Origin: Gammaproteobacteria bacterium
GTDB lineage: Bacteria; Pseudomonadota; Gammaproteobacteria; Pseudomonadales; Azotimanducaceae
Direction: 5' to 3'
Length of the DNA stretch: 64,000 bases
Assembly (NCBI GenBank): GCA_028821405.1
Contig: JAPPGK010000030.1
Span: 1-64,000 of the forward strand
In this document: in pieces, positions 1,906-64,000 of the stretch
Layout of the letters: each line of letters opens with the position of its first letter
Position numbering within the stretch: position 1 is the stretch's first letter
Notes under the pieces: generated by a model
Databases searched by the model: none
Told to the model about the DNA's origin: nothing
What the model saw: only the letters and a program-made list of their open reading frames with translations
Translations under genes and position numbers: made by a program

Positions 1906-1922
1906 CCGACGGGGTTCGAGCC

Positions 1923-4900
1923 ATGCCGAACCGGCCAACCGAACGCAGGGGCCGTGGTTGGGAATCGGCCCCCCAACGCATGCGGACCATCACCCGGGTC
2001 CTCGCTTGGATCTGTCTGGCTGCAGCCGCCGCGCCCACCGCGGGTCGGGCCCAGGTGAACATTCCCGACGAGAATCTCCGCGCCGCAATCGAAACCGCGC
2101 TCGACAAGGCATCCGGCGCTGCGATCACCGAGTCGGAGATGGAGTCGTTGACGGTGTTGCGGGCCCAGTACGTCGGTATCAAGGATCTCACGGGTCTAGA
2201 ACACGCAACGGGACTGACGGAGCTTTACCTGTCGTACAACGACATCGAGGACCTCTCGCCTCTATCGGACCTGGAATCGCTGGAACGACTCTGGGTCGGC
2301 GACAACAGAATCTCGGACCTGGGACCGCTGGCGAGCGTGACCTCGTTGGTCGACCTTTCGTTCTTGAACAACGCCATCTCCAACCTCTCACCGTTGTCGG
2401 GCCTCCACGCGCTGGAGTACCTCGACCTGAGAGAGAATCGGGTCTCGGAGTTGGCACCTCTGACGGGCCTCGATGGGTTGGTTCGTATCTTGCTCAACGG
2501 CAACGGCATCTCGGACCTGACACCGCTCGAAGGATTGACCTCGTTGGATTGGCTCGAGCTCAACGACAACGCCATCTCGGACCTGACACCGCTCGCGGGC
2601 CTACCCGTATTGCGCATTCTCGAGCTTTCGAACAACGGCATCGCGGATCTGTCGCCACTCTCCCGCCTCGGTTCGTCTCTGCATAGTCTCGCCCTTGGAA
2701 GCAATGGGATCTCGAACCTGTCGCCGCTCGTGCCGCTGACCGAATTGGGACGTCTTGATCTCTCGGACAACCGGATCACGGACGTGTCGGCGCTAGGGGG
2801 CATGGCCAAATTGTGGTTACTCGATCTCACCGACAACCGGATCTCGAACCTAGCCCCCCTGGCGGGCATGTCGAGGATGTCGTTCCTCTATCTATCCGAA
2901 AACGAGATTGCCGACTTGTCGCCCCTGACCGGCATGAATGAATTGGAGTACCTCCATCTCTCCGACAACGAGGTCTCGGACCTGACGCCCTTGGCGGGCC
3001 TCGACACAGTGAGTGTTCTCGCGCTGTCAGGTAACGAAGTCTCCGACCTGGCCGCACTGTCGGACCTCAAGTTACTGGGGGTTCTCCATCTCGCGGATAA
3101 CCAGATTTCCGATCTCTCGGCCTTGTCTGACCTACCCGAGTTGACCTTCCTCTATCTTGCGGACAACGCTGTCTCCGACCTCTCGCCGCTGTCGGACCTG
3201 TCGGAGCTGGTCACCCTCGATCTTTCGCGCAACGAAATTTCGGATGTGTCGCCCCTATCGGACACCTCGGCACTCCAGATACACCTGTCGGACAACGAGA
3301 TTTCGGATGCAACGCCATTGAACGGTGGGCTTATCCTTACCCTCGATCTTTCACGTAACGGCATGTCGGACATTTCCTCGCTGGCAGGCATATTCGCGGG
3401 CTGGCTCCATCTCTCAGACAACGGGATAACGGATGTCTCGTCCCTTTCGGCCGTCCCTTCTACGATCTTCCTTGACCTGGCGGACAACCAGATCTCGGAC
3501 GTGTCGGCGTTGTCGGGTCTGCAATTGTGGACGCTCGATCTTTCGAACAACCGGATCGCGGATCTTTCGGCGCTCGAAGGCATGCAGTCCTTGGAATCCC
3601 TCGATGCTACTGCAAACGAGATCGTGGATATCGCCCCGGCAGCGCGCCTGCCCAACGCGCAGTTCCTTTACCTCGGCGCAAACGCGATTGCCGATGTCGC
3701 ACACCTCGCAGTCCGACCGGAGTCACTGCGTCGCGTCAGTCTTTGGCGCAACCCGCTGAACGCGGGCTCGGTCCTCACCCATATCCCCGCCATCGAGGAA
3801 CGCGGGGTCGGCATGACCGGCGGCGGTTGGCGGGTGCCGTTCTTCCCGTCTTTGGGCGGATTTCGGCAGGGCTTCGTCCGCGTCGTATCGTCGGTGGCCG
3901 GCGACTCGCTTCCGGAAGACGCGTCCGATAGCGCGTGGGTCTATCCGTCGGGGGAGGACGCCGGCCGGGCACGGCTGGGGTTGGGTGCGCGCAACGCCCG
4001 ACACTTCAACGCCGAAGATCTCGTCGCCGGCAACCCGGACAAGGGCATTCGTTCGACGATCGGTGCCAGCGACCGCCTGGACGTCTACGCCTCCGGCGAC
4101 GTCGACGTCCTGTCCTACATACGCACCGCGGACGGGTTCGTCACCAGCATGCACGACACGGCGCCGTGGCTGCCGGACGGCATGCGGCTCGACCGTCTGA
4201 GGGGGCGCGCCGTCTCGGCGTCCGGGCGGGCCTCGGGCGGGCACTTCGTACCCATCTTCAACCCGGCGAGCAATGCCAAGCAGCGCAGCATGCTGCGCCT
4301 GGTCAACGCCGGCGACGAGGACGCGGAGGTGACGGTGCACGCCGTCGACGACCACGGCGTGGCGGCGGCGCCCGTGCGGCTTGCGCTCGCCGCGCATTCG
4401 ACCCGGACGCTCTCCGCCGCCGACCTGGAGTCCGGCGAGCCGGCGGACCTCTCCGGTTCGCTCGGCGACGGCGAAGGCAAGTGGCGCCTGGTGGTGTCCG
4501 CCGACGCCGAGATCCACGTCATGAACCTGATGTCGAGTCCCACCGGCCACCTCACCAACCTGTCCACGTCGTCCGACGCCGACCTCGTCGTGCCCATGTT
4601 CCCGGCGGCGTCGCATCCGACCCGGCAGGGGTTCGTGCGGGTGGCGAACCTCGGTGCCACCGCGGGCACGGCCGAGGTCCGGGGCTACGACGACGAGGGC
4701 ACGTCCCACGGCCCCGTCACCCTAGAACTTCCCGCCGGACGCACCGTGCACTTCAACTCGGACGACTGGGAGTCCGGCAATGAGGACAAGGGACTCGAAG
4801 GCGCCGCCGGCGAGGGCGAAGGGGCGTGGCGGTTGGAGTTCGAGAGCGAACTGGACCTCGTGGTATCGGCCTACGTGCGCACGTCGGACGGCTTTCTGAC

Positions 4901-5381
4901 GAGCATGCACGACCTGGTCGACCGGAACGCCTGCGCCGCCGAGGCGGCGGAGAGCGGACCGGTCCCGGCCCGCAGCCCGCGCTCGTTCGCGTTTCGCCCG
5001 TGCCGGGACGAATCCCGCGTCCCGTTCTTCAATCCGGCGAGCAACACGCGGCAGGTCAGTTCGCTGCGGCTCGTCAACCTGGGCGACGCGGACGCCGCGG
5101 TCGCCATCCTCGGCGTCGACGACGACGGCGCACAACGCGGCCCGGCGAGGCTGTCGCTGCCGGGGGGCGCCGCATGGAACCTGACCTCGCAACAGCTCGA
5201 GTCCGGCGACGCCGACGGCCTGGTCGGCGCCCTGGGCGACGGGACGGGCAAGTGGGAGTTGCGCGTCCACGTCGCGGACGAAGCCGCAAGCGATGTCATG
5301 GTGATGAGCCTGCTGGAGAGCCCCACCGGCCACTTGACCAACCTGTCCACCTGGCCGGACGACGAGCTGCGTCTAAGATAG
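1923..5381 (+). CDS. Exported leucine-rich-repeat protein with A-B-A-B beta modules (LRR copy 1)
   Basis: This 1152-residue protein has a signal peptide (core VLAWICLAAAAAPTAG). A short conserved N-terminal segment contains IPDENLRAAIE. About 23 internalin-like LRRs of 22 residues follow, with the pattern LxLSDNxISDLSPLxGL. After an LRR cap, about 500 residues form two alternating beta-rich modules (A-B-A-B), ending in SPTGHLTNLST. LRR arrays of this type normally bind proteins; the ligand is unknown. The ATG at 1923 is preferred over the ORF-track start because the upstream 170 codons are a shadow of the carboxylase gene, and the N-region length matches the paralogue. The ATG at 1980 is an alternative. 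It is probably secreted or on the cell surface; no sortase or lipobox signal is seen. Confidence 0.85.
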   Translation: MPNRPTERRGRGWESAPQRMRTITRVLAWICLAAAAAPTAGRAQVNIPDENLRAAIETALDKASGAAITESEMESLTVLRAQYVGIKDLTGLEHATGLTELYLSYNDIEDLSPLSDLESLERLWVGDNRISDLGPLASVTSLVDLSFLNNAISNLSPLSGLHALEYLDLRENRVSELAPLTGLDGLVRILLNGNGISDLTPLEGLTSLDWLELNDNAISDLTPLAGLPVLRILELSNNGIADLSPLSRLGSSLHSLALGSNGISNLSPLVPLTELGRLDLSDNRITDVSALGGMAKLWLLDLTDNRISNLAPLAGMSRMSFLYLSENEIADLSPLTGMNELEYLHLSDNEVSDLTPLAGLDTVSVLALSGNEVSDLAALSDLKLLGVLHLADNQISDLSALSDLPELTFLYLADNAVSDLSPLSDLSELVTLDLSRNEISDVSPLSDTSALQIHLSDNEISDATPLNGGLILTLDLSRNGMSDISSLAGIFAGWLHLSDNGITDVSSLSAVPSTIFLDLADNQISDVSALSGLQLWTLDLSNNRIADLSALEGMQSLESLDATANEIVDIAPAARLPNAQFLYLGANAIADVAHLAVRPESLRRVSLWRNPLNAGSVLTHIPAIEERGVGMTGGGWRVPFFPSLGGFRQGFVRVVSSVAGDSLPEDASDSAWVYPSGEDAGRARLGLGARNARHFNAEDLVAGNPDKGIRSTIGASDRLDVYASGDVDVLSYIRTADGFVTSMHDTAPWLPDGMRLDRLRGRAVSASGRASGGHFVPIFNPASNAKQRSMLRLVNAGDEDAEVTVHAVDDHGVAAAPVRLALAAHSTRTLSAADLESGEPADLSGSLGDGEGKWRLVVSADAEIHVMNLMSSPTGHLTNLSTSSDADLVVPMFPAASHPTRQGFVRVANLGATAGTAEVRGYDDEGTSHGPVTLELPAGRTVHFNSDDWESGNEDKGLEGAAGEGEGAWRLEFESELDLVVSAYVRTSDGFLTSMHDLVDRNACAAEAAESGPVPARSPRSFAFRPCRDESRVPFFNPASNTRQVSSLRLVNLGDADAAVAILGVDDDGAQRGPARLSLPGGAAWNLTSQQLESGDADGLVGALGDGTGKWELRVHVADEAASDVMVMSLLESPTGHLTNLSTWPDDELRLR
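4017..5371 (+). repeat. Near-identical 1.35-kb direct repeat, copy 1 (3' part of LRR gene 1)
   Basis: From 4017 the sequence matches 7457 onward at a constant offset of 3440 bases. By eye there are only four substitutions until the last few codons (near 5222, 5264, 5289 and 5330). Just upstream of 4017 the two genes diverge clearly, including in the LRR region. The identity includes synonymous sites, so recent gene conversion or duplication is more likely than selection on the protein alone. Confidence 0.9.
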
Positions 5382-5446
5382 GCCGGGAGCCGACCACGGC
5401 AACGCGGGTGTAGAATCGGCACCATCCGGGCCCGGGAGCCGGGATC

Positions 5447-8400
5447 ATGAGCGTCGAAAGCCGTACGACCGCCGACCATTCTCCCGATCGGATCCGATTC
5501 GCCACCGTTCTGGCGTGGACCTGTTTCGCTGCCGCCACTGCGACAACAGCCGTCCATGGCCAGGAGGCCGACATCCCCGACGAAAATCTCCGGGCAGCGA
5601 TCGCGGCCACGCTCGGCAAGCTACCCGGGGCGGCGATCACCGTGGCCGAGCTGGAATCGTTGACGGTGCTGCGGGCCTCGCGCGACGACATCGAGGAGCT
5701 CACGGGCCTGGAACACGCCACGGGACTGGTGGAACTGCACCTGGGGTTCAACGACATCGCCGACGCCTCCCCGTTGGCGCACCTGACCGCGTTGACCACT
5801 CTCGATCTTTCCGACAACAAGATCTCGGACCTGGAACCGCTATCGGGCCTACGCTCGTTGGCGAGTCTCCGTCTTTCGAACAACCGCATCTCGACACCGT
5901 CGCCGCTGGCGGGCCTGCCCTTGTTGACCGACCTCCGTCTATCGGGCAATGGGGTTTCGGACCTGGCGCCGCTGGCCGGCATGACTTCGTTGGGTCGGCT
6001 CGATCTGTCGAACAACGGCATCTCGGACGTGTCGCCGCTGTCGGGCCTGACCGCGTTGAACAGTCTCGATCTCTCGCAGAACGGGATCGCCGACGTGTCG
6101 CCGCTCTCGGGGATGACCTCGTTGGCGATCCTCCATCTCTCTGCCAACGGGATATCCGGCTTGTCGCCGCTGGCCGGTCTGACCGCATTGGGCGTACTTG
6201 GTCTCTCGAACAACCGGGTCTCGGACGTATCGCCGCTGGCGGGCATGGCCTCGTTGTGGAGTCTCGGTCTCGCGGACAACCGGATTTCGGACGTGTCGCC
6301 GCTATCCGGGCTGACCTCTCTGGAGCTTCTCCTACTCTCCCGCAACGGCATCTCGGACTTGTCGCCGCTGGCGGGCATGGGGGAACTGGAATGGCTCGAC
6401 CTGTCCCACAACGCGATCTCGAACTTGATGCCGCTGGCGAAGCTGGGCGGATTGGAGTTCCTCGATCTGTCGCACAACGCGATCTCGGGCTTGTCGCCGC
6501 TCGGAGCCTTGGGCGAATTAGAGATCCTCGATCTGTCGGACAACGCGATCGCGGACTTGTCGCCGCTATCGGGTCTGCGCGAACTGGATGCGCTCGATCT
6601 CTCAAGGAACCGGGTCTCGAGCTTGTCGTCGCTGTCGCGCCTCCGCCTGTTAGTACTCGATCTTTCCGGCAACCGGATTTCAGACCTCTCGCCCCTAACG
6701 AGCCTTACCTTGATCAGTCTCGATCTGGCGGGCAACGAAATCAGGGACTCATCGCCGCTGTCAGGTCTGTTGTTCTTGCTCGATCTCGATCTCTCGGGCA
6801 ACCAAATCACCGATTTGGCACCGCTGCCTCCGCTATTGGTGTCCCTGGATCTCTCGCACAACCAAGTCAGAGACCTGTCGCGGGCACGGGGGCTACTGCT
6901 ACGCGCGCTCAATCTATCGGACAACGGCATCTCGGACTTGTCGTCGCTCGGGGACGCGCCCTTCTTGCGGCAACTCGACCTTTCCAACAACCGCGTGGCC
7001 GATCTGTCGGCGCTGAAGAAGACCGAGGGCGTGGAACTACTCGATATCGTCGCCAACGAAGTCGTCGACCTCACCCCGGCGGCGCAACTGTCAAGTCTTC
7101 GATCTCTTTACGTCGGAGGAAACGCCGTTGCCGATGTCATGCCGCTTGCCAGCGAACCGTTACTCCTGCGAGACGTGAGTCTATGGCGCAATCCGCTCGA
7201 CGACGTTTCCCTCGAAGTCCACATCCCCGCCATGAATCAACGAGGAGTCGGCATGACCGGCGGCGGATGGCGGGTGCCGTTGTTCCCCTCCCCGGACGGG
7301 TTCCGGCAGGGTTTCGTCCGCGTCGTATCCTCGGTGGCCGGCGAGTCGCTACCGGAAGACGCTTCCGACAACGCGTGGGTGTATGCCTCGGGGCGGAACA
7401 CCGGTCCCGTTCGCGTCCTGTTGGGCGCGCGAAGAGCCAGACACTACAACGCCAATGATCTCGTCGCCGGCAACCCGGACAAGGGCATTCGTTCGACGAT
7501 CGGTGCCAGCGACCGCCTGGACGTCTACGCCTCCGGCGACGTCGACGTCCTGTCCTACATACGCACCGCGGACGGGTTCGTCACCAGCATGCACGACACG
7601 GCGCCGTGGCTGCCGGACGGCATGCGGCTCGACCGTCTGAGGGGGCGCGCCGTCTCGGCGTCCGGGCGGGCCTCGGGCGGGCACTTCGTACCCATCTTCA
7701 ACCCGGCGAGCAATGCCAAGCAGCGCAGCATGCTGCGCCTGGTCAACGCCGGCGACGAGGACGCGGAGGTGACGGTGCACGCCGTCGACGACCACGGCGT
7801 GGCGGCGGCGCCCGTGCGGCTTGCGCTCGCCGCGCATTCGACCCGGACGCTCTCCGCCGCCGACCTGGAGTCCGGCGAGCCGGCGGACCTCTCCGGTTCG
7901 CTCGGCGACGGCGAAGGCAAGTGGCGCCTGGTGGTGTCCGCCGACGCCGAGATCCACGTCATGAACCTGATGTCGAGTCCCACCGGCCACCTCACCAACC
8001 TGTCCACGTCGTCCGACGCCGACCTCGTCGTGCCCATGTTCCCGGCGGCGTCGCATCCGACCCGGCAGGGGTTCGTGCGGGTGGCGAACCTCGGTGCCAC
8101 CGCGGGCACGGCCGAGGTCCGGGGCTACGACGACGAGGGCACGTCCCACGGCCCCGTCACCCTAGAACTTCCCGCCGGACGCACCGTGCACTTCAACTCG
8201 GACGACTGGGAGTCCGGCAATGAGGACAAGGGACTCGAAGGCGCCGCCGGCGAGGGCGAAGGGGCGTGGCGGTTGGAGTTCGAGAGCGAACTGGACCTCG
8301 TGGTATCGGCCTACGTGCGCACGTCGGACGGCTTTCTGACGAGCATGCACGACCTGGTCGACCGGAACGCCTGCGCCGCCGAGGCGGCGGAGAGCGGACC

Positions 8401-8821
8401 GGTCCCGGCCCGCAGCCCGCGCTCGTTCGCGTTTCGCCCGTGCCGGGACGAATCCCGCGTCCCGTTCTTCAATCCGGCGAGCAACACGCGGCAGGTCAGT
8501 TCGCTGCGGCTCGTCAACCTGGGCGACGCGGACGCCGCGGTCGCCATCCTCGGCGTCGACGACGACGGCGCACAACGCGGCCCGGCGAGGCTGTCGCTGC
8601 CGGGGGGCGCCGCATGGAACCTGACCTCGCAACAGCTCGAGTCCGGCGACGCCGACGGCCTGGCCGGCGCCCTGGGCGACGGGACGGGCAAGTGGGAGTT
8701 GCGTGTCCACGTCGCGGACGAAGCCGCAGGCGATGTCATGGTGATGAGCCTGCTGGAGAGCCCCACCGGACACTTGACCAACCTGTCCACCTGGCCGGAC
8801 GACGAGCTGCGAACGAGATAA
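5447..8821 (+). CDS. Exported leucine-rich-repeat protein with A-B-A-B beta modules (LRR copy 2)
   Basis: This 1124-residue paralogue of the preceding gene has the same order: signal peptide (VLAWTCFAAATATTA), the IPDENLRAAI segment, about 22 LRRs of 22 residues, then the alternating A-B-A-B beta modules ending in GHLTNLSTWPDD. The LRR part is clearly diverged from copy 1 (residues on the exposed strand differ between repeats), while the C-terminal 450 residues are almost identical. The ATG at 5447 lies 65 bases after the previous stop, so the two genes may be cotranscribed. The likely role is surface or secreted binding, with the LRR part setting specificity and the shared C-terminal part acting as stalk or anchor; this is inference. 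Confidence 0.87.
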   Translation: MSVESRTTADHSPDRIRFATVLAWTCFAAATATTAVHGQEADIPDENLRAAIAATLGKLPGAAITVAELESLTVLRASRDDIEELTGLEHATGLVELHLGFNDIADASPLAHLTALTTLDLSDNKISDLEPLSGLRSLASLRLSNNRISTPSPLAGLPLLTDLRLSGNGVSDLAPLAGMTSLGRLDLSNNGISDVSPLSGLTALNSLDLSQNGIADVSPLSGMTSLAILHLSANGISGLSPLAGLTALGVLGLSNNRVSDVSPLAGMASLWSLGLADNRISDVSPLSGLTSLELLLLSRNGISDLSPLAGMGELEWLDLSHNAISNLMPLAKLGGLEFLDLSHNAISGLSPLGALGELEILDLSDNAIADLSPLSGLRELDALDLSRNRVSSLSSLSRLRLLVLDLSGNRISDLSPLTSLTLISLDLAGNEIRDSSPLSGLLFLLDLDLSGNQITDLAPLPPLLVSLDLSHNQVRDLSRARGLLLRALNLSDNGISDLSSLGDAPFLRQLDLSNNRVADLSALKKTEGVELLDIVANEVVDLTPAAQLSSLRSLYVGGNAVADVMPLASEPLLLRDVSLWRNPLDDVSLEVHIPAMNQRGVGMTGGGWRVPLFPSPDGFRQGFVRVVSSVAGESLPEDASDNAWVYASGRNTGPVRVLLGARRARHYNANDLVAGNPDKGIRSTIGASDRLDVYASGDVDVLSYIRTADGFVTSMHDTAPWLPDGMRLDRLRGRAVSASGRASGGHFVPIFNPASNAKQRSMLRLVNAGDEDAEVTVHAVDDHGVAAAPVRLALAAHSTRTLSAADLESGEPADLSGSLGDGEGKWRLVVSADAEIHVMNLMSSPTGHLTNLSTSSDADLVVPMFPAASHPTRQGFVRVANLGATAGTAEVRGYDDEGTSHGPVTLELPAGRTVHFNSDDWESGNEDKGLEGAAGEGEGAWRLEFESELDLVVSAYVRTSDGFLTSMHDLVDRNACAAEAAESGPVPARSPRSFAFRPCRDESRVPFFNPASNTRQVSSLRLVNLGDADAAVAILGVDDDGAQRGPARLSLPGGAAWNLTSQQLESGDADGLAGALGDGTGKWELRVHVADEAAGDVMVMSLLESPTGHLTNLSTWPDDELRTR
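7457..8811 (+). repeat. Near-identical 1.35-kb direct repeat, copy 2 (3' part of LRR gene 2)
   Basis: This is the partner of the repeat at 4017. The match ends at the final codons, where the two genes have different last residues and stop codons (TAG in copy 1, TAA in copy 2). Flanking sequence after the stops is unrelated. Confidence 0.9.
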
Positions 8822-48924: not shown

Positions 48925-50778
48925 CTAGTAAGTCGTGGTGTCGAGCTGACCCGTGCCCAGGTTCTCCTGGATCGTCATGACGTCGACAGCGGTACGTGGG
49001 GCCGTAAGACTCAAGATGCCCGAAGCGCGGGGCGCCCTCGCCTCGTCACTTGAATCCAACATGTCCTGTACCCGGACGACCATCCTGGACCTGGGCTTTA
49101 CGGTGCCACTGATCGAGCCCGTGATGGCGACGCCTTCCTCGGTCTGGAAGTCGTCCATCCAGAAACCGGCATCCCGAGTGCCATGGTTCACGATCACCAG
49201 CCGCTGGTTGTAGGCCAGGTTGGTGCTCAGGTACGAAATGTTGACCGTCGTGCCGTTGCGGGCGATGGCACCGGCGGGGCCGCTCGCCTCCGGACCGTTG
49301 ACCCGAGCGGTCGCCGGACCACTCATCGGCGTCACGGTCATCAGATAGCCGTCCAACATCCTGTCGTCGCCAACGGCGGGAATCGCCACTTCGTTTGTGC
49401 CGACATTCACACAAAACTGAAACGGCCCCCCGCCAACGACCGTTGCGATGCCTTGGGTCGCGGCCGCGGAAAACGTCGGATCGGTGTCGGCCGTCGGGTT
49501 GATCGCCACTAAGTCGCCATCCGCGTCGGGGGCTCTCAATGTCAGCGCGGCACCGGTGCAGGAAGGGGGCTGGCCTTCTGCGGGGACTGGACCCACCCTG
49601 AAGGCTTGCGGCGAACCGCCTGCGTTCAGCACAGCGTCGGTCTCGATCGTGGGGGTGGCGGGGTTGTCGCCAGTGCGCCTGCGTTCGCCATTGGGGCCAT
49701 CGCCGGCGCCGTTGCCGAACCCGAATGCCCCGGCGGTATCTGACGTAACCACGACCCGGGCGGCTGTGTTGACTGTCCCCTCGAACTCCTCGCCGTCGGA
49801 CGCATCCAGGAACACACTCTCATCAACCATCGTGGCGGGATCATCCGCCTTTACGTTGAGGGTTACCCTCGCCAGCACGCCTACGTCGGTCGAGGGTCGC
49901 GTGAAGACGCGAAACGGTCCGCCGGTGGACACGTTTCTCTCCGGATACCCGACGTCCGCTGTCGCAAGCATCGGCGTGATCGTCGGTGCGGCGATCTTGG
50001 GCGCCACCTCGAACAACGTCCCGTACCCGTGAACCAGGTACGTGTCGGGGACATCGACGGGATCGGTCGCCCGCGCGGCGGCACGCGCGTGACCGAGTGA
50101 CCGGTAGATGAACAGATCGCCCCGGTACGTCGCCGCACCGACGTCGTCGATGGCCAAGCGCCCTTCGCCGAGCGCCAACCGGACACGGGTGTCGATGGGG
50201 ATGTCGTGCTCGCCAGCGAGTTCGATCTTGTAGACGCCCGCAGAATCGGTTGCTTCGCCTCTGAACGCGCGTACGAGGTTTATGTCCGCGAGGCAGGGAT
50301 TGGTGTTGTTGACATCGGCCGGGGTGCCGGCGCACGAGAGGTACTCACCGTTGACTGCGGTCACTGGAGGGGTGGCGGTCGGGTTGCCTTGCACGTTCGC
50401 GATCTTGCTGTAGAACCGGAAGCCCGTCACCTCGCCGAGCATGGGTTCCCTCGGCGCTACAACAGGTGTGACACCCACATCGCTGCCCGATGTACCCGCC
50501 ACGTCTGGTCGATGCGCAATCGGAGCCTCGTTGGGTTCGATGTCCTGCGTAAGCTGCGCGGACCAGAAGTTGACGACCAGGTAGTAGTCGTCGTTACTCT
50601 CGAGCGAGGTGTCCAGTTTGAAGTCCAGCACGATGTCACCGACCGGGGTTGCGGTGATCGAGTAGGGAGCGTCTCCGGAGAGACTCTCGGCCGCGAACGG
50701 ATGATCCGGTGCGGCAGCCGCCCCGAATGCCCCGACGATGCCAACGATCCCGAGCACACGGGCCACGGCAGCGCCCAT
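48925..50778 (-). CDS. Exported protein of unknown function with paralogue at window end (617 aa)
   Basis: This 617-residue protein has a signal-like N-terminus (VARVLGIVGIVGAFGAAAAP). The mature protein is beta-rich with low-complexity Gly/Asp loops (GFGNGAGDGPNGERRRTGDNP) and one conserved C-terminal region of about 250 residues (VNISYLSTNLAYNQRLVIVN; FQTEEGVAITGSISGTV; MLDSSDEARAPRASG). The last 220 residues are almost identical to the protein ending at 63184. It is likely secreted or on the surface. ATG at 50778 is chosen over 50826. The family is unknown to me. Confidence 0.7.
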   Translation of the reverse strand: MGAAVARVLGIVGIVGAFGAAAAPDHPFAAESLSGDAPYSITATPVGDIVLDFKLDTSLESNDDYYLVVNFWSAQLTQDIEPNEAPIAHRPDVAGTSGSDVGVTPVVAPREPMLGEVTGFRFYSKIANVQGNPTATPPVTAVNGEYLSCAGTPADVNNTNPCLADINLVRAFRGEATDSAGVYKIELAGEHDIPIDTRVRLALGEGRLAIDDVGAATYRGDLFIYRSLGHARAAARATDPVDVPDTYLVHGYGTLFEVAPKIAAPTITPMLATADVGYPERNVSTGGPFRVFTRPSTDVGVLARVTLNVKADDPATMVDESVFLDASDGEEFEGTVNTAARVVVTSDTAGAFGFGNGAGDGPNGERRRTGDNPATPTIETDAVLNAGGSPQAFRVGPVPAEGQPPSCTGAALTLRAPDADGDLVAINPTADTDPTFSAAATQGIATVVGGGPFQFCVNVGTNEVAIPAVGDDRMLDGYLMTVTPMSGPATARVNGPEASGPAGAIARNGTTVNISYLSTNLAYNQRLVIVNHGTRDAGFWMDDFQTEEGVAITGSISGTVKPRSRMVVRVQDMLDSSDEARAPRASGILSLTAPRTAVDVMTIQENLGTGQLDTTTY

Positions 50779-50875
50779 GGTGGGTCTCAAGACCACTGTC
50801 TGCGCCGGGCTCTTCCCAACATTCACGGCATGGAACCTATGACCCGAGCGGAGAATCCCATCCCCGTGGCGCCTC

Positions 50876-51290
50876 CTAGTGGGTCGAGTCGAACGCCTGG
50901 TCTAGCGCACCGGCGTCTAGCGCTCGTTCCGCCCAAGACTCGAGTTTGGTCGGCAGGAATCGAGCAGCCGCCTCGGAAGCCGCCCTCGCGGCCGCCTCCG
51001 CCGCCTCAGCAGTCACGTCAGCCGCCGCCGCTGCCACCTCGACAGCGACCGCCAACGCTTGAGGCGACCCCGCTCGCCTTGCGGCATACACTTCCACAAA
51101 CCCGGCGACATAGTCTGCCGCATACCCTGCCGCGAACGCTGTCAAGAACCCTTCCGCATACCCTTCCTCGCGAGCCCTCTGGACCGTTCCTATCATGGTT
51201 CTGCTCTCCTTGGGGATACTGCCGCCGGTAGCGCCACGCTCATTGTCGTTGAGGGCGGCGTAGATGTCGATGAAGGCGAAGTTCGCCCGG
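50876..51290 (-). pseudogene. Rpn-family gene fragment (C-terminal part)
   Basis: On the minus strand, the encoded part runs from FAFIDIYAALNDNERG through TMIGTVQRAREEGYAEG to FLPTKLESWAERALDAGALDQAFDS. It corresponds to the last third of the intact Rpn gene at 8969. The middle is an Ala-rich insertion (ALAVAVEVAAAAADVTAEAA) shared with the fragment at 54.8 kb. An ORF start at 51196 exists, but no N-terminal nuclease core. Confidence 0.7.
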
Positions 51291-52890: not shown

Positions 52891-52897
52891 CAGGGCC

Positions 52898-53045
52898 AAT
52901 CATCGTGGGCGATTGCTGATTTGGGCGTGCGAGATGGCTGGAACGCGCGTAGGAGATCGCAGAGAGGGGGTCACCGGTACGGTATTCGGCCGGGCCTGGG
53001 TCCTAGGGAACGGGCGTGTCCCGTCCCGGTGGGGCCTACAGGAGA
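52898..53045 (-). repeat. Rpn leader repeat, attached to a fragment
   Basis: GGGCGATTGCTGATTTGGGC and GAGATGGCTGGAACGCGCG (plus strand) recur at 55370-55430 and in diverged form at 62600-62660. Similar sequence lies upstream of the intact gene at 8860-8968 in the opposite orientation. It is the conserved 5' region of the Rpn copies. Its left end touches the stop of the following minus-strand gene. Confidence 0.7.
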
Positions 53046-54825: not shown

Positions 54826-55440
54826 TGGGAGCCCGTGCGCGTTTCCGGGCGGCCCTAGGCGCCCCAGCGCACCGGGGTCGAGCGTTCGTTCCGCCCAAGA
54901 CTCGAGTCGGGTCGGCAGGAATCGAGCAGCCGCCTCGGAAGCCGCCCTAGCGGCCGCATCCGCCGCCTCAGCAGTCACGTCAGCCGCCGCCGCTGCCACC
55001 TCGACAGCGACCGCCAACGCTTGAGGCGACCCCGCTCGCCTTGCGGCATACGCTCCCACAACCCTACGACATAATCTGCCGCATGCCTCCGCCGGGGCGA
55101 CCGCGTCGCGGGGTACTCGACGATGAGCGCCCCAGAGCCGGGCCGGCGCTTCGCTATCGCTATACGCCGACGCCGTCTCCGGCCCAGTCACACCGGGCTG
55201 CCACGGAACGAACGCCGCGGTCGCAAGCTCCCTTTGGCGTTTGTTCCATGGGAGGTTCTTGAAGTTGTGGTCGTGGCTGACGGCATCCGCCATGTCCGCG
55301 CCCCGGCGTTGGTACGCAGCCAATCATCGGCCAGACCCGCGGCCGGGGATGCAGGCGATGTCTGCAATCCGCGTGGGCGATTGCTGATTTGGGCGTGCGA
55401 GATGGCTGGAACGCGCGTAGGAGATCGCCAGCGGGGACGA
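54826..55440 (-). pseudogene. Rpn-family gene copy with internal deletion, plus leader
   Basis: The leader repeat lies at the right end (about 55310-55440). It is followed on the minus strand by MADAVSHDHNFKNLPW, the family start. The central nuclease core is gone. The C-terminal part returns (AEAADAAARAASEAAARFLP, then LESWAERTLDPGALG). It resembles the fragment at 50.9 kb more than the intact gene. Confidence 0.75.
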
Positions 55441-55569
55441 CCCAAGGGTCGACCCCGACGGGCGTTGGCGCGGTGTGGGACGCGAGTGGTGTATGTCCAA
55501 AGTCGCCAACGGCTTGAGTTTCCACCTTGCTTCCTCGATCCTTGAGCGCTTTGGGTCCTCCCTGATCGG

Positions 55570-56745
55570 GTGGGCCTTGCGAGGAATCCGTGTTCATGGG
55601 CACCGCAGTTGACGGCCACTAGCCATGGTCGGGCCGACCTTAAGGCCGCCTCCATCGTGGTGCCCACCTATCGCGAGGCGTCGAACCTACGCGCGTTGGC
55701 CAAGCGCGTGGCGGCGGCGATGGCGGGGAGCGGGTGGACGTGGGAGCTGATCCTGGTCGATGACGACTCGGCGGACGGCAGCATCGAGATCACGAACGAA
55801 TTGGCGGGGCGGCTGCCGGTTCGGATGGAAGTCCGGCGAGGGGTACCGCGCGACCTCTCGGCCGCGGTGCTGGAGGGGATCGGCCTCGCACGGTTCGATC
55901 GGATCGTGGTGATGGATGCGGATCTCTCGCATCCGCCGGAGCGTATCCCCGATCTGCTATGCGCCCTCGACGGAGGTGCGGACATGGTGGTGGGAAGCCG
56001 GTATGCACCCGGTGGCGAGATCGATCAGGGATGGAGCGCGTGGCGCCACCTGAACTCGCGCCTCGCAACATTGCTTGCCCGTCCGCTGGTGGCCTGCAAA
56101 GACCCGTTGGCCGGTTTCTTCGCCTTGGATCGGAACACGCTGCCGGACCTAGGGCGGCTGTACCCCATCGGCTACAAGATCGGGCTGGAGTTGATGGTGC
56201 GGGGACGGCTGCGAGTTGCCGAAGTGCCCATCGCGTTCAGCGACCGCGTGCTGGGCACGAGCAAGCTCAATTGGCGACAGCAGTTCAACTACCTGCGCCA
56301 TGTGCATCGCCTGTACCTGTTCCGCTATGGCCGCGTGGCTCGTGTGGCGAGCTTCCTGGGCGTCGGTGCCAGCGGTTTCGTTATCGACGTCGCGTTCTAC
56401 CTCGGTCTGCAGGGGTTGGGGATTGAGCATCGCCTGGCCCGGTTCCTCTCCTTCTGGCCCGCCGTCACGTGGAACTGGCGCCTCAACCGCGCCCTGACCT
56501 TCGCCGAACGTCCTTGGCGGCCCCGGGCCCGGCAGTGGGCGCAGTTTGTCGGCAGCAGTCTGCTCGGCCTGGGGTTGAACGTCGGCACCTATACGGCGTT
56601 GACCAGTTTCGTGGCGTTCTTCGGGCGCAACCGTCTGCTGGCGCTGATCTGCGGAGTGGCCGTCGGAAGTATCGCGAACTACCTCGTGGCCAACGGCTGG
56701 GTCTACGGTCGTCGTCGCACCGCGTCCGCGGGCCGTCTTCGGTAG
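55570..56745 (+). CDS. GT2 glycosyltransferase with C-terminal GtrA-like domain
   Basis: This 391-residue protein has a polyprenol-phosphate-mannose-synthase-type GT2 domain: SIVVPTYREASNLRALAKRV, WELILVDDDSADGS, MDADLSHPPERIPDLL (DAD metal motif), and LAGFFALDRNTL. Residues 255-390 form a GtrA-like domain of four spans (FLGVGASGFVIDVAFYLG). It likely makes a lipid-linked sugar at the cytoplasmic face of the membrane and supplies the next gene. The start GTG at 55570 is uncertain; no ATG lies in frame near the domain start. It is followed by the TMTC-like gene after nine bases. Confidence 0.85.
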   Translation: MGLARNPCSWAPQLTATSHGRADLKAASIVVPTYREASNLRALAKRVAAAMAGSGWTWELILVDDDSADGSIEITNELAGRLPVRMEVRRGVPRDLSAAVLEGIGLARFDRIVVMDADLSHPPERIPDLLCALDGGADMVVGSRYAPGGEIDQGWSAWRHLNSRLATLLARPLVACKDPLAGFFALDRNTLPDLGRLYPIGYKIGLELMVRGRLRVAEVPIAFSDRVLGTSKLNWRQQFNYLRHVHRLYLFRYGRVARVASFLGVGASGFVIDVAFYLGLQGLGIEHRLARFLSFWPAVTWNWRLNRALTFAERPWRPRARQWAQFVGSSLLGLGLNVGTYTALTSFVAFFGRNRLLALICGVAVGSIANYLVANGWVYGRRRTASAGRLR

Positions 56746-56754
56746 AGGGCTTCG

Positions 56755-59292
56755 GTGGCGGACAGGCGGAAGCGACGAGCGCGGCGTCGATCCACGAACC
56801 GGCCGAGAGGCGGCACCGTCGGCGACGGGCCGGTGGCAGCCGGAAGACAACCAGGTTTGCCGGGTACGTCTTTGATCGCCGACTTCACGCGGCGCGATGC
56901 GCTCGCCTTTCTGGGGCTGACGATCCTCGTCTGCGTCAGCTACTACCCGTCGCTGGCGGGAGGATTCGTCTGGGACGACTTCGTCTTCGTCGACGCGCCC
57001 GTAATCCATGCGGCGTCCGGCATTTGGCACATCTGGTTCTCGCCGGGCGACATCCGTGGCGAAGCCCACTACTGGCCGATCGTCTACGCGACGTTCTGGC
57101 TCGAGCACAAGCTGTGGGGACTCGATCCCTTGGGCTACCACATCGTCAACCTGGTGCTGCATCTCGTCAACTCGCTGCTTGTGTGGCGGCTAATTGGCCG
57201 GTTGGCCGTTCCCGGGGCGTGGTTGATCGCGGCCGTCTTCGCCGTGCATCCGGTACACGTCGAGTCGGTGGCTTGGATCATCGAACGCAAGGACCTGCTC
57301 TCCGGGCTGTTCTATCTCACCGCCTTCCTGACCTGGATGCGGTTCGCCGAGACACCGACGGTCAAGGGGTATCTCCTGGCCCTGGCACTCTTTGTGGCAG
57401 GCATGCTGTCGAAGTCCATCGTCGTGACGCTACCGGCCGCACTTCTCGTCTGGCATTGGTGGCGACAGGGCAACATCAAGCGCCTCGATGTGGTTCGGCT
57501 CGCGCCGTTCTTCCTAGTGGGCTTCGCGATCGGCCTCGCGGACTCCGCGTTCTATGCGTCGCGAGAGTCCATCGACTTGGGTTATTCGTTCGTCGAACGG
57601 GTGCTGATCGCGGCCCGCGCGCTCTGGTTCTATGCCGCGAAGCTGGTTTGGCCCCTCGACCTCGCGGTGATCTACCCGTTGTGGGAGATCCATGCCGAGG
57701 ATCTCCGCGCTTGGCTGTATGTCGCCGCCTCCGTGTTGTTGGCTGGCGCACTTTGGTTCTGCCGCCACCGGATCGGGCGCGGGCCGTTGGCCGGCGGGCT
57801 GTTCTTCGCGGTGACGCTCGCCCCGGTGCTCGGGTTCGTCGACTTCGGCTATATGCAGTTCTCCCTGGTCGCCGACAGGTTCCAGTACCTCGCGAGCATC
57901 GGGCTGATCGCGGTCGTTATCGGATGCCTGACCCATGGTGCCGTGAAGTTGGCCCCGATGGTGCAGGCCAGCACGGGCGCGTTGGCCGCCATCGCCGTCG
58001 CGGCCCTCGGTGGTCTGACATGGCAGCAGGCCGGCGTGTACCGGGACGGGATCACCTTGTTTGGCCACATCGTCACACACAATCCCACGGCACTTGATGG
58101 CCATCACAACCTGAGCATCGCCCTGTTCGACGCAGGGCGCATCGAAGAGGGTCTTGCGGCGAACCGGATCGCCCGGGAGCAACGTCCGGATGCCCCGAAA
58201 CCCTACTCGGTTCTTGGTAAGTTGCTGGTGGAACAAGGTCGGTTCGAAGAGGCGGATGACGTCCTGCGACGAGCTATCGAGCTAGATCCAGCTCATCGCG
58301 ACGCTCTGCAGAACTGGGCCGAGCTCGCGCGGAAAGTAGGGCGTCCCGCGGAAGCCGAAGCCCGCTACCGAAAGGTATTGACGATTGACCCGGAATACGG
58401 CCGCGCGCACGCTGGGCTTGGCGCCCTCCTATTCCGGCAGAAGCGGCACGCGGAAGCGCTCGACCATCTGCGGATGGCCGTCGAACTGCCGGGCACCGAC
58501 GAGACTAGAGGCGCACTTTATCCGTTCATGGGCCAATCCGCCTGGGAACTTGGGCACTTGGAGGAAGCCGAGACGCACTTGGAGCGCGCCATCGCCGCAA
58601 TGCCCGACAACGTCGTGACGCTGTTGGCCATGGCTGACCTGCGGATCCGGCAGGAACGCGCGGAGGAAGCGGAAGCGTTCCGGCGCCGGGCGCGGGAAAT
58701 GCACCCCGACGATCCGACGTTGCGCCACATGATTGCGGAATCGCTGCGCAAGGAAGGTCAGATCGACAAGGCGATCGCCATCTACGAGGAAGCGCTCGAG
58801 ATCGATCCCGGGAACGCCCCGGTGCTTGCCGGCCTGGGAATTACGTTGTACCAGCGCGGGCGCTTCCGGGCCGCCGTCGATTCGATGATCCGGGCATTGG
58901 ACCTACAGCCCGGCCTGCCCTACGCCCTTTCGTTGCGGCTATACAGCGGCCATTCGATGCGCGAGTTGGGAGAGATTTCGGCGGCGAGCAGACAGTACGA
59001 ACTCGCCGCCGAAATCGAGCCGGGGAACCGGGAAGCCCTGAACCACCTGGCCACGTCCCTGTTCGAGCTGAAACGCTACGAGGAAGCGCACGAGCGCTAC
59101 CAGGAACTCATCGAACTTGATCCGGGCAACGCCGTGGCGCACTCAAGCCACGGCGTAGTCCTGCATCACCTAGGCCGCAGCCAGGAGGCGCTCGCAAGGG
59201 TCGAAAGGGCACTCGAACTCGACCCGGCGCTCGAACAGGCGCACAAGGCCCGGGAGGAGATACGCAAGGCCCTGGGATTGACCGATCCCTGA
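56755..59292 (+). CDS. TMTC-like membrane protein with C-terminal TPRs (copy 1)
   Basis: This 845-residue protein has about 10-11 spans (residues 45-430) with the GT-C style luminal motif GGFVWDDFVF and the segment HPVHVESVAWIIERKDLLSG. About 11 TPRs cover residues 440-845 (AIAIYEEALEIDPGNAPVLAG type). This layout matches TMTC/PMT-like enzymes, which in animals O-mannosylate proteins using a polyprenol-phosphate sugar. The gene upstream is a likely donor-synthesising GT2 enzyme, which supports that role by inference. It begins with GTG. A second copy lies downstream, with high DNA identity. Confidence 0.82.
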   Translation: MADRRKRRARRRSTNRPRGGTVGDGPVAAGRQPGLPGTSLIADFTRRDALAFLGLTILVCVSYYPSLAGGFVWDDFVFVDAPVIHAASGIWHIWFSPGDIRGEAHYWPIVYATFWLEHKLWGLDPLGYHIVNLVLHLVNSLLVWRLIGRLAVPGAWLIAAVFAVHPVHVESVAWIIERKDLLSGLFYLTAFLTWMRFAETPTVKGYLLALALFVAGMLSKSIVVTLPAALLVWHWWRQGNIKRLDVVRLAPFFLVGFAIGLADSAFYASRESIDLGYSFVERVLIAARALWFYAAKLVWPLDLAVIYPLWEIHAEDLRAWLYVAASVLLAGALWFCRHRIGRGPLAGGLFFAVTLAPVLGFVDFGYMQFSLVADRFQYLASIGLIAVVIGCLTHGAVKLAPMVQASTGALAAIAVAALGGLTWQQAGVYRDGITLFGHIVTHNPTALDGHHNLSIALFDAGRIEEGLAANRIAREQRPDAPKPYSVLGKLLVEQGRFEEADDVLRRAIELDPAHRDALQNWAELARKVGRPAEAEARYRKVLTIDPEYGRAHAGLGALLFRQKRHAEALDHLRMAVELPGTDETRGALYPFMGQSAWELGHLEEAETHLERAIAAMPDNVVTLLAMADLRIRQERAEEAEAFRRRAREMHPDDPTLRHMIAESLRKEGQIDKAIAIYEEALEIDPGNAPVLAGLGITLYQRGRFRAAVDSMIRALDLQPGLPYALSLRLYSGHSMRELGEISAASRQYELAAEIEPGNREALNHLATSLFELKRYEEAHERYQELIELDPGNAVAHSSHGVVLHHLGRSQEALARVERALELDPALEQAHKAREEIRKALGLTDP

Positions 59293-59450
59293 GATGCGTC
59301 GACGCCCGCCAGCGGTGACGCGACTCCCACCTTGGACCAAAACCCGCGTGTCGTCGAACGGCGAGTTGCAGACCCGGTGCCGGCGCGGCCGTGCCTACCC
59401 TCAACGTACGTCCCGATTCAAGAAGCATTAGTCGTCGAACCAGATCCCCA

Positions 59451-59640
59451 TTGAGTTTCCACCGTGCTTCCTCGATGCTTGAGTTCCTTGGTTCATCGCC
59501 GATCGGGCGCACCCTGCGGGAGGAATCCGCGCTCATGGTCACCGCAGTTGACGATCCCTAGCCAAGGCCGGGCCTGGTACCAACCTATCGCGGGGCCACG
59601 AACCGCCGCGCGTTGGCCAAGCGCGTGGCGCACGGTCGGT
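59451..59640 (+). pseudogene. Remnant of the 5' end of the GT2 gene
   Basis: This matches 55508-55710, the leader and first codons of the GT2 gene. The matching marks include GAGTTTCCACC-TGCTTCCTC, GGAATCCG and CGCGTTGGCCAAGCGCGTGG. The rest of the GT2 gene is missing, and after it comes the second TMTC-like gene. The remaining part of 59293-59450 has no gene. Confidence 0.8.
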
Positions 59641-59688
59641 AAACGACCGGTGACGACCGCGCGACAAGGCTTAGCGGGCGCGTTTTCG

Positions 59689-62442
59689 ATGGCCGAATTC
59701 GCGCAACGGGATTTGTTCGCCTTGCTGGGGCTGGCGGTGCTCGCGTGCGTCAGCTACTACCCGTCGCTGGCGGGCGGGTTCGTTTGGGACGACTTCGTCT
59801 TCACCGAGGCACCGGTGGTCCAGGCGGCGTCCGGCATCTGGAACATCTGGTTCTCCCCGGCCGACATCCGCGACGAAGGCCACTACTGGCCGATCGTCTA
59901 CACGACGTTCTGGCTCGAGCACAAGCTGTGGGGACTCGATCCCTTGGGCTATCGCATCGTCAACCTGGTGCTGCATCTCGTGAACTCGCTGCTCGTGTGG
60001 CGGCTGATGGGGCGGTTGTCCGTTCCCGGGGCGTGGCTGATCGCGGCCGTCTTCGCCGTGCATCCAGTACACGTCGAGTCGGTGGCTTGGATCATCGAAC
60101 GCAAGGACGTGCTATCCGGGCTGTTCTACCTCACGGCCTTCCTGGCCTGGATCCGGTTCGCCGAGACACCGACTGTAAAGGGGTATCTCTTGGCCCTGGC
60201 ACTGTTTGTGGCTGGCATGCTGTCGAAGTCCGTCGTCGTGACGCTACCGGCAGCACTTCTCGTCTGGCATTGGTGGCGACAGGGCAACATCAAGCCTGTC
60301 GATGGGGCGCGGCTCGCACCGTTCTTCCTGGTGGGCTTCGCGATCAGCCTCGCGGACCTCGCGTTCTACACTTCGCGATTCTCCTTTGACGTGGCGTATT
60401 CGCTCCCCGAACGGCCGCTGATCGCTGCCCGTGCCCTCTGGTTCTATGCCGAAAAGCTAGTCTGGCCCGCGGACCTCGCGGTGATCTACCCGTTGTGGGA
60501 GATCGATGTCGGCGACGTCCGAGCGTGGTTCCATGTCGCCGCCGCCGCGCTGTTGGCCGGCGCGCTATGGTTCTGCCGCCACCGGATCGGGCGTGGGCCG
60601 TTGGCCGGCGCGCTGTTCTTCGCGGTGACGCTCGCGCCGGTGCTCGGGTTCGTCGACTTCGGCTTCATGCAGTTCTCCCTGGTCGCCGACAGGTTCCAGT
60701 ACCTCGCGAGCATCGGGCTGATCGCGGTTGTTCTCGGATGCCTGACGCATGGTGCGAGGAGGCTGACCCCGATGGCGCAGCGCGGCGCAGTGGCATTGGC
60801 CGCCATCGCGGTCGCGGCTCTCGGTGGTCTGACGTGGCAGCAGGCCGGCGTGTACCGGGACGAGATAACGTTTTTCGGCCACATCGTGTCGCACAATCCA
60901 ACGGCGCGGGACGCCCAATTCAGCCTCGGCTCCGCCCTGCTCGAGGCAGGACGGCTCGAAGAAGCGGAGCAAGCGCTGCAACGGGCTGTCGAGGCGGATC
61001 CCCAGCATCGGGGCGCTTTGCAGAGCCTGGCCGAGTTGGCACGGCGACGGGGAAATTTCACCGAAGCCGAGATCGGTTACCGGCAGGTATTGGCGATTGA
61101 CAGGGAATACGGCCTCGCACACGCCGGGCTCGGCACCGTGCTATTCGAGCAGAGACGCTATGGGGAGGCGCTCGACCATCTGCGCATTGCAGTGGAATCG
61201 CCGACCACGGTCGACACTAGGGGCACGCTTTACCTGTTGATGAGCCGGTCGGCCAGAGACCTTGGGTATCTCGATGAATCCAAGGCGCACCTGGAACGCG
61301 CTCTCGCGGCGATCAGTGTAGCCGGGGAGCAACGACCGGATACGCCCGGGTTCTATACGATCCTCGGCCAGGCGTTCATGGAACAAGGGCGGTTCGATGA
61401 GGCGGCGGCCGCCCTGCAACAAGCCATCGAGGCGGATCCGGAGCATGTCGACGCCATGCAGATGTGGGCCGAGTTGGCGCGGAAACGTGGGCGCCTCGCC
61501 GAAGCCGAGACCCGATACCGGGAGGCGTTGGCGATGGACGAGGGTCATGGCCTCGCGCATGCCGGGCTTGGCACCGTGCTGTTCCGGCAGGGGCGCTACG
61601 CGGAAGCGCTCGACCACCTGAGTTTGGCGGTGGAGTCGCCGGCCACCGCGGAGACGCTGGGTGCGCTCTACCTCTACTTGGGCCAGTCCGCCGCGGCACT
61701 TGGACACCTCGCGGAAGCCGAGGCCCACTTGGAGCGCGCCGTGGCTGAAATACCCGACAACATGCTGACGTTGTTGGCGATGGGTGACCTGCGGGTCCGG
61801 CAGGGACGTGCCGAGGAAGCGGAAGCGTTCCGGCATCGGGTGCGGGAGTTGCACCCCGACGATCCGACGTTGCGCCACATGATCGCGGAATCGCTGCGCA
61901 AGGAAGGTCAGGTTGACGAGGCGATCGCCATCTACGAGGAAGCGCTCGAGATCGACCCCCGGAACGCCCCGGCGCATGCGGGCCTGGGCATTGCGTTGTA
62001 CCAGCGCGCGCGCTTCCGGCCCGCCGTCGATTCGATGATCCGGGCATTGGACATACAGCCCGGCCTGCCCTATGCCCTTTCGTTGCGGCTATTCAGTGGC
62101 CACTCGCTACGCGAGTTGGGAGACATCCCGGCGGCGAGCAGACAGTACGAACTCGCCATTGAGATCGAGCCGGAGAACCGGGAAGCCCTGAACCACCTGG
62201 CTGCGTCCCTGTTCGAGCTGAAACGCTACGAGGAAGCGCACGAGCGCTACCTGCAACTCATCGAACTTGATCCGGACAACCCCGTGGCGCACTCAAGCCA
62301 CGGCGTTGTCCTGCACCACCTAGGCCGCAACGAGGAGGCGCTCGCAAGTGTCGAAAGGGCACTCGAACTCGACCCGGCGCTCGAACAGGCGCACAAGGCC
62401 CGGGAGGTGGTACGCAAGGCTCTGGGGTTTACCGATCCCTGA
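59689..62442 (+). CDS. TMTC-like membrane protein with C-terminal TPRs (copy 2)
   Basis: This 917-residue paralogue of the gene at 56.8 kb has the same multi-span part with GGFVWDDFVFTEAPVV and a longer TPR region (about 13 repeats), which accounts for the extra 72 residues. DNA identity with copy 1 is high across the membrane part and the last 500 bases, lower in the middle TPRs. The ATG at 59689 (MAEFAQRDL) is preferred; the track ORF upstream reads through the GT2 remnant. It lacks its own intact GT2 gene and may use the product of the first one. Confidence 0.82.
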   Translation: MAEFAQRDLFALLGLAVLACVSYYPSLAGGFVWDDFVFTEAPVVQAASGIWNIWFSPADIRDEGHYWPIVYTTFWLEHKLWGLDPLGYRIVNLVLHLVNSLLVWRLMGRLSVPGAWLIAAVFAVHPVHVESVAWIIERKDVLSGLFYLTAFLAWIRFAETPTVKGYLLALALFVAGMLSKSVVVTLPAALLVWHWWRQGNIKPVDGARLAPFFLVGFAISLADLAFYTSRFSFDVAYSLPERPLIAARALWFYAEKLVWPADLAVIYPLWEIDVGDVRAWFHVAAAALLAGALWFCRHRIGRGPLAGALFFAVTLAPVLGFVDFGFMQFSLVADRFQYLASIGLIAVVLGCLTHGARRLTPMAQRGAVALAAIAVAALGGLTWQQAGVYRDEITFFGHIVSHNPTARDAQFSLGSALLEAGRLEEAEQALQRAVEADPQHRGALQSLAELARRRGNFTEAEIGYRQVLAIDREYGLAHAGLGTVLFEQRRYGEALDHLRIAVESPTTVDTRGTLYLLMSRSARDLGYLDESKAHLERALAAISVAGEQRPDTPGFYTILGQAFMEQGRFDEAAAALQQAIEADPEHVDAMQMWAELARKRGRLAEAETRYREALAMDEGHGLAHAGLGTVLFRQGRYAEALDHLSLAVESPATAETLGALYLYLGQSAAALGHLAEAEAHLERAVAEIPDNMLTLLAMGDLRVRQGRAEEAEAFRHRVRELHPDDPTLRHMIAESLRKEGQVDEAIAIYEEALEIDPRNAPAHAGLGIALYQRARFRPAVDSMIRALDIQPGLPYALSLRLFSGHSLRELGDIPAASRQYELAIEIEPENREALNHLAASLFELKRYEEAHERYLQLIELDPDNPVAHSSHGVVLHHLGRNEEALASVERALELDPALEQAHKAREVVRKALGFTDP

Positions 62443-62499
62443 TGGGTCGACGCGCGCTCGGCGGCCCACCAGCGGTGACACGACTCTCCATGGTCCGAC

Positions 62500-62695
62500 T
62501 GACGGCGTCCGCCATGTCCGCGACCCGCCGGTGGTACGCGGCGAATCATCGGCCAGACTCCCCGCCGGCGATGTAGGCGAAGGCTGCAGTCCGCGTTGGC
62601 GATCGCTGATTTGTGTGTGGGAGATGGCTGGAATACGCGCAGGAAATCGCAGAGCCGGACGACCCAGTGACCCGTACGGCATGCCGCGCCTAGGT
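62500..62695 (-). pseudogene. Rpn leader remnant without gene
   Basis: The sequence GACGGCGTCCGCCATGTCCG ... ATCATCGGCCAGACTC ... GAGATGGCTGGAATACGCGC matches the leader and start of the copy at 55.3 kb. No nuclease core follows. It ends in a GACGGGC-CCGTCCC type short inverted repeat near 62697-62735. Confidence 0.65.
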
Positions 62696-63183: not shown

Positions 63184-64000
63184 CTAGTACATCGTGGTGT
63201 CGAGCTGACCCGTACCCAGGTTCTCTTGGATCGTCATGACGGAGACAGCGGCCTCACGCGCCGTGAGGTTCAGGGTGCCCGAAGCGCGGGGTGCCCCGAT
63301 CTCGTCGCTTGAGTCCAACATGTCCTGCACCCGGACGACCATCCTGGTTCCCGCCTTGACGGTGCCACTGATCTCGCCCGTGATGGAGATGCCTTCCTCG
63401 GTCTGGAAGTCATCCATCCAGAAATCGGCATCCCGACTGCCACGGTTGACGATCACCAGCCGCTGGTTGTAGGACAGGTTGGTGCTCAGGTACGCAATGT
63501 TGACCGTCGTACCGTTGCGATCGATGGAACCGGCGGCGCCACTCTTAGCCGGACCGGCCGACCTACCGGTCGCCGGACCACTCATCGGCGTCACCGTCAT
63601 CATGTAGCCGTCCAACATCCTGTCGTCGCCAACGGCGGGAATCGCCACTTCGTTGGTGCTGACGTTCACACACAACTGGAACGGTCCGCCGCCACTTACG
63701 GTTGCGGCACCCTGGTTCGCCATTGCCGAGAACGTCGGATTAGTATCGGCCAACGGGTTGATCGACACCTGATCGCCGTCCGCGTTGGGGGCGCTCAGCG
63801 TCAGCGCGGTGCCTCCGCATGTGGCACCGACTGCGCCAACCCTGAAGGCCATCGGTGCGCCGCCTGCATTGAGGACGTAGTCGGTCTCGACCGCCGGGGT
63901 GTCCGGATTGTCGCCGGTGACCCTGCGCTCCTTGTCGCCGGCACCGTTGCCGAACCCGAAGGCACCGTCCACAGTAGAGGTGACCACGACCCTGGCGGCC
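63184..64000 (-). CDS. Exported protein of unknown function, second copy (5' end beyond window)
   Basis: This is the C-terminal 272 residues of a paralogue of the protein at 48.9-50.8 kb. The final 220 residues match closely (VNIAYLSTNLSYNQRLVIVN, FQTEEGISITGEISGTV, GTGQLDTTMY). The frame stays open to base 64000, so the start lies outside. The Gly/Asp loop (FGFGNGAGDKERRVTGDNP) is shorter than in the first copy. The terminator at 63043-63071 follows it. Confidence 0.7.
   Translation of the reverse strand, partial: AARVVVTSTVDGAFGFGNGAGDKERRVTGDNPDTPAVETDYVLNAGGAPMAFRVGAVGATCGGTALTLSAPNADGDQVSINPLADTNPTFSAMANQGAATVSGGGPFQLCVNVSTNEVAIPAVGDDRMLDGYMMTVTPMSGPATGRSAGPAKSGAAGSIDRNGTTVNIAYLSTNLSYNQRLVIVNRGSRDADFWMDDFQTEEGISITGEISGTVKAGTRMVVRVQDMLDSSDEIGAPRASGTLNLTAREAAVSVMTIQENLGTGQLDTTMY

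Follow-up and report, generated by a model that had tools for sequence, protein, structure and literature searches.

A bacterial gene cassette joining a DPMS-like synthase to two TMTC-like GT-C proteins, probably a mannosylation unit shared by apparent sponge and coral symbionts

The animal TMTC1-4 proteins are cadherin O-mannosyltransferases. The human members have 11 TM helices, the motifs that define the family include M7 (ERxxY), which binds the donor phosphate, and full-length prokaryotic homologues with TPRs are already published (PMC7801869). TMTC/TMEM260-type protein O-mannosylation has been studied in animals; bacterial TMTC homologues have been noted, and their placement in a pathway was not found in the literature searched. 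The TMEM260-like O-mannosyltransferases (PF11028) share the presumed donor with TMTC-like proteins and belong to a different GT-C family. Polyprenyl-phosphate-sugar synthases are also combined with GT-C transferases in the ArnC/ArnT pair and in the gtr serotype-conversion operons, where GtrB-like and GtrA proteins accompany an acceptor-specific GT-C.

The window (the whole stretch of DNA analysed, 64,000 nucleotides) contains three genes that a sequence-only reading had described as a GT2-GtrA gene followed by two multi-span plus TPR proteins with GGFVWDDF. All three ORFs were recovered on the forward strand (Table 1), and the motif is present in both P0002 and P0003. P0001 carries the Pfam domains Glycos_transf_2 (1.8e-24) and GtrA_DPMS_TM (1e-18), and 9 nt separate its stop (56745) from the GTG start of P0002 (56755); P0002 and P0003 (TMTC-like proteins A and B) match PMT_2 above the Pfam cut-off and contain many TPRs. 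The N-domains of A and B are 84% identical, and most of the difference between the proteins is in the TPR array: that of B contains an internal duplication of about four TPR units, its copies spaced by 438 nt. The start codon of P0001 is uncertain, homology to 5mlz beginning near 55648. GTG 59464 is probably too early a start for B, the true one being ATG 59689 or a codon just ahead of it: homology to P0002 sets in only a little before that ATG, and the ORF upstream of it runs over repeated intergenic DNA. Intergenic repeats up to 97% identical surround the cassette (50904-51102 / 54866-55064; 52897-52960 / 55277-55444 / 62499-62666), and they read into false N-termini of ORFs. Family-by-family searches of the window's genome (4.77 Mb, 122 contigs, 97.6% complete) showed no close TMTC-like copy besides A and B, and P0001 as its one GtrA-domain gene. 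The three genes are probably a mannosylation cassette dependent on polyprenyl-phosphate mannose, with an exported protein as the likeliest acceptor.

Table 1 Coordinates of the cassette genes and of their domains and motifs in the window.
Feature	Position	Strand	Remarks
DPMS-like polyprenyl-phosphate sugar (probably mannose) synthase, P0001	55570..56745	+	GT2 + C-terminal GtrA/DPMS TM domain
TMTC-like protein A, P0002, 845 aa	56755..59292	+	11-TM GT-C domain + C-terminal TPR superhelix
GT-C domain of TMTC-like A, 11 TM	56884-58113	+	
DD catalytic motif, TMTC-like A, residues 74-75, first external loop	56974..56979	+	Alignment D31/D32
DRxxY motif, TMTC-like A, residues 374-378	57874..57888	+	Counterpart of TMTC M7 (ERxxY)
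TPR array, TMTC-like A	58120..59292	+	
TMTC-like protein B, P0003, 992-aa ORF	59464..62442	+	Tandem duplicate, longer TPR array
DD motif, TMTC-like B, ORF residues 109-110	59788..59793	+	Sequence + alignment
Internal duplication, TPR array of B	60849..61586	+	Copies 60849-61148 and 61287-61586

The sequence-only reading had proposed the GT-C fold and the conservation of the DD motif as checks, and both were borne out. The AlphaFold2 model of the GT-C domain, built from 96 aligned GT-C domains (pLDDT 94.5, pTM 0.93), matched OST/STT3, ArnT, Pmt4, AglB, PglB, AftB, Emb and Pmt1-Pmt2 in a Foldseek search of the PDB, with probabilities near 1 and E-values that were modest (best 5e-4) because GT-Cs diverge. 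A profile search of the same domain against PDB sequences gave no useful match. In the full-length model (pLDDT 91.9) a TPR superhelix is added after the GT-C domain, and its fold search returned TPR proteins only, among the matches listed. Eleven TM helices were counted in the model, with DD in the first external loop; this odd number ahead of the C-terminal TPR array, together with an Arg-rich cytoplasmic N-terminus, would place the DD loop and the TPR array on one side of the membrane. PF13231 scored over its cut-off and Pmt4 is among the fold matches, in agreement with the GT-C fold of the PMT/POMT (GT39) clan. PMT/POMT carry a luminal MIR domain, which gave no match among the families listed; the TMTC-like proteins instead have the TPR array after the membrane domain.

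The residues invariant in the 89 close relatives (89/89) are the DD pair, His62, RKD 135-137, Lys177 and Arg332; over the wider alignment the first D is kept in 95 of 96 rows and the second in all 96. The TMTC motif M3 (RxD) therefore appears as RKD, and M7 (ERxxY) is represented by R332, preceded by Asp in place of Glu in 87/89; M3/M7-type motifs are present in other bacterial relatives too. M4 (KE) retains its Lys in the close relatives, the Glu being replaced by Ser/Thr, and M5 (DW) lacks the Trp. DUF1736 (PF08409) was found in none of the 96 family members at E 0.01, nor in the 399 genomes of the window's own phylum, a survey uninformative on its own because the control genomes also gave no match. 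The absence of DUF1736, K-S/T for KE and the missing Trp at DW argue against strict membership: A and B would work like a TMTC, but the plain name TMTC is too strong for them and they are better called TMTC-like. They share with animal TMTC1-4 an N-terminal GT-C domain of 11 TM helices, DD in the first external loop, RxD, the Lys, (E/D)RxxY and a C-terminal TPR superhelix on the same side, and differ from them, besides the three features just named, in being bacterial and encoded beside a donor synthase. The conservation of catalytic and donor-binding residues throughout the 89 relatives, and the linkage to a donor synthase, make it very improbable that these are inactive membrane-anchored TPR scaffolds from the eukaryote-like repeat repertoire of sponge symbionts, despite the enrichment of TPR proteins seen in MAGs of sponge symbionts (PMC8163846). 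A special closeness of the sponge clade to animal TMTCs (RKD and ADRxxY, versus QKN-type and ADHxxY in seven other rows) was considered and rejected, since the bacterial relatives L077 and L081 also have ERKD/ERKE and ADR..Y; the seven rows are thus probably a derived branch.

The closest solved GT2 to P0001 is the P. furiosus DPMS (5mlz), matched over its full length by residues 17-363 (E 4e-55), with ArnC (6e-17) and Sll0501 (5e-9) as weaker matches. The two proteins share the full-length GT2 plus GtrA-like membrane domain and the DxD-type motif DADLxHPPE, which reads DADLSHPPE in P0001, Ser replacing Gln; P0001 differs further in being bacterial and probably co-transcribed with a GT-C. DADLSH is kept in every covering row of the alignment of the relatives' cassette DPMS. 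The window's genome also encodes a ManC-type protein on contig C122 (TIGR01479, 431 bits against a cut-off of 373), with a truncated isomerase domain; a PF01050 search missed it because of this C-terminal truncation. The earlier proposal of a DPMS-like GT2 and of mannose is backed by the sequence of P0001 and, in relatives, by ManC, Alg9-like GT22 and TMEM260-like neighbours, and from this context mannose is very likely the donor sugar. The same pathway running on another sugar, such as glucose or GlcNAc, is improbable: GT2 donor specificity cannot be safely read from sequence, and the family includes the ArnC- and glucose-type enzymes that match P0001 weakly, but the best solved match is a DPMS, ManC lies adjacent in relatives of different phyla and occurs in the window's genome, and the neighbouring GT22 and TMEM260-like proteins both belong to mannosyltransferase families.

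The pairing of P0001 with a TMTC-like gene is not a chance arrangement, because it recurs: in 21 other loci, spanning Pseudomonadota, Acidobacteriota, Nitrospirota and Spirochaetota, DPMS lies directly upstream of the TMTC-like gene on the same strand, within about 200 nt (genes in relatives were called by a script from sequence composition, which leaves their starts approximate). Of 50 carrier genomes, 31 contain somewhere a DPMS of 57% identity or more and 47 contain some DPMS-like GT2; about 19 of the 50 have a distant match only (30-38% identity) or none. The tree of DPMS correlates with that of the TMTC-like proteins (Mantel r 0.56, 0/5000 permutations). Variants of the arrangement were also observed: the DPMS match covers the GT2 domain only, without the GtrA part, in the cassettes of L006, L009, L010 and L039; a stand-alone GtrA-like ORF lies upstream of the TMTC-like gene in L020, L028, L029 and L036 (Latescibacterota, Gemmatimonadota); L019, L024, L036 and L051 are among the loci with an additional PMT_2-like GT-C; and a Nitrospirales chromosome (L096:9541-11639) has a shortened remnant of a TMTC-like gene after an intact DPMS.

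The neighbourhoods of the relatives include genes for mannose supply, further glycosyltransferases and giant secreted proteins. ManC adjoins DPMS or belongs to the cluster in L037, L095 and L097, facing DPMS in the last (Binatia); an Alg9-like GT22 mannosyltransferase is found in 12 loci plus L098 (Terriglobia; order DPMS, GT22, TMTC); and a TMEM260-like gene (PF11028), absent from the window's genome, neighbours the TMTC-like gene in six related loci. The chromosome-level locus L095 reads TMTC, TMTC, TMEM260-like, Alg9-like GT22 (assigned from its scanned cluster mates), ManC, DPMS-like (opposite strand) and a secreted protein, 1616 aa or longer, in which Calx-beta, He_PIG and LapA domains were recognised. 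Related clusters continue in L100 and L101; besides a DPMS-like gene they encode secreted Calx-beta/LapA proteins whose lengths are at least 4022 and 4128 aa. These giants are 28% Ser+Thr, and they share 79% identity with the L095 protein along about 1600 residues, in a comparison between records titled Alpha- and Gammaproteobacteria. In the group L012, L014, L015 and L038 (Pfam scan made on the L015 member) a Calx-beta/PKD protein lies directly upstream of DPMS. The main rival explanation makes an envelope glycan or glycolipid the target of the cassette, a sugar carried on undecaprenyl phosphate being passed to O-antigen, lipid A or a polysaccharide. The gene order resembles the gtrA-gtrB-gtrX operons, ArnT is among the fold matches, and the Alg9-like GT22 could build a polymannose glycan. 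We consider this rather unlikely: ArnC/ArnT and gtrA-gtrB-gtrX act on lipid A or O-antigen, have no TPR domain and contain a more distant GT2 (P0001 is far closer to DPMS than to ArnC or Sll0501), whereas the protein-modifying TMTCs are built with such a large TPR arm, and the genes clustered with the family include those for a TMEM260-like enzyme and for giant Ser/Thr-rich adhesins.

In the preferred reading, mannosylation of an exported protein, GDP-mannose would be made by the genome's ManC, P0001 would load the mannose onto polyprenyl phosphate (its predicted activity), the product would flip across the membrane, and the GT-C domain would transfer the mannose in the periplasm to an acceptor that is exported and kept in place by the TPR arm. 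That acceptor is likely a protein, and the best candidates would be large Ser/Thr-rich beta-sandwich surface proteins (Calx-beta/LapA/Ig type); Calx-beta-type proteins could quite possibly be the substrates. The window's genome has Calx-beta ORFs on other contigs and no Calx-beta protein beside the cassette. The earlier suggestion that exported proteins are mannosylated, perhaps the surface proteins of the window, is partly supported, in its choice of mannose; the window's own surface proteins are not specially indicated, the neighbour in relatives being the giant Calx-beta/LapA protein. The tandem proteins A and B would serve different acceptors; the difference in their TPR arrays fits such a diversification without proving it.

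The TMTC-like family was represented by 72 loci in 84,980 species genomes, in a scan by short exact peptide patterns that favours close relatives. The record titles of the 66 loci at about 44-79% identity name about nine phyla; the six free-living-looking loci (40-44% identity) are separated from these by a long branch (length 1.04, support 100). The window's own phylum (399 genomes) gave no other close copy, three genomes holding relatives at 32-35%. Phyla interleave inside the clade, the whole tree showing 31 label changes where 9 would be the minimum, a count to be read with paralogy and submitter taxonomy in mind; examples on complete or megabase contigs are Binatia L031 in a proteobacterial group and Gammaproteobacterium L022 with Spirochaetia L056. 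Almost all of the close relatives appear to be MAGs of sponge or coral symbionts, hosts being assigned for the jk18x, p16x, IRC/RHO/STY/COS/APA, LS_SOB, OX/OY/CAT and Plut names. We take the OX/OY/CAT records to be from sponge and Plut to be from Porites coral; LS_SOB is sponge-associated. MAGs from Ircinia sponges make up the jk18x bins (PMC9531527), and the p16x bins are placed in that study only by their names. The codes IRC, RHO, STY, COS and APA correspond to host sponges in PMC8163846, the first three being spelled out in PMC12203066. Horizontal spread of the family among bacteria that by appearance are mostly sponge or coral symbionts is probable as part of the whole explanation, and enrichment of TPR and cadherin genes and lateral transfer are general in sponge symbionts (PMC8163846).

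The open-access literature search found no paper on the DPMS linkage, on the TMEM260/GT22/ManC/Calx-beta cluster or on the cross-phylum sponge distribution. A role in host association is possible, and tentative. A wider picture, somewhat doubtful as a whole, is that a complete bacterial counterpart of animal O-mannosylation has passed horizontally among symbionts of sponges and corals in many phyla, and that in it ManC, DPMS, TMTC-like and TMEM260-like initiators and an Alg9-like GT22 extender would mannosylate giant Calx-beta/Ig-type adhesins and shape host recognition. The apparent host-associated distribution across phyla would also point to surface mannosylation as a shared trait of sponge symbiosis. 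A bacterial operon with donor synthase and transferase would permit reconstitution in a laboratory host, and its substrate, its sugar and what the TPR arm does would become open to experiment.

On either side of the cassette lies one of two paralogs of 66% identity, both predicted to be secreted (48925-50826 and 63184-64000, both on the reverse strand; the latter complete as L099:888-2711); neither has a Pfam match, and they are possible acceptors, or unrelated. Two tandem large LRR proteins with eukaryote-like repeats (1325 and 1124 aa ORFs) are encoded at 1404-8821 on the forward strand.
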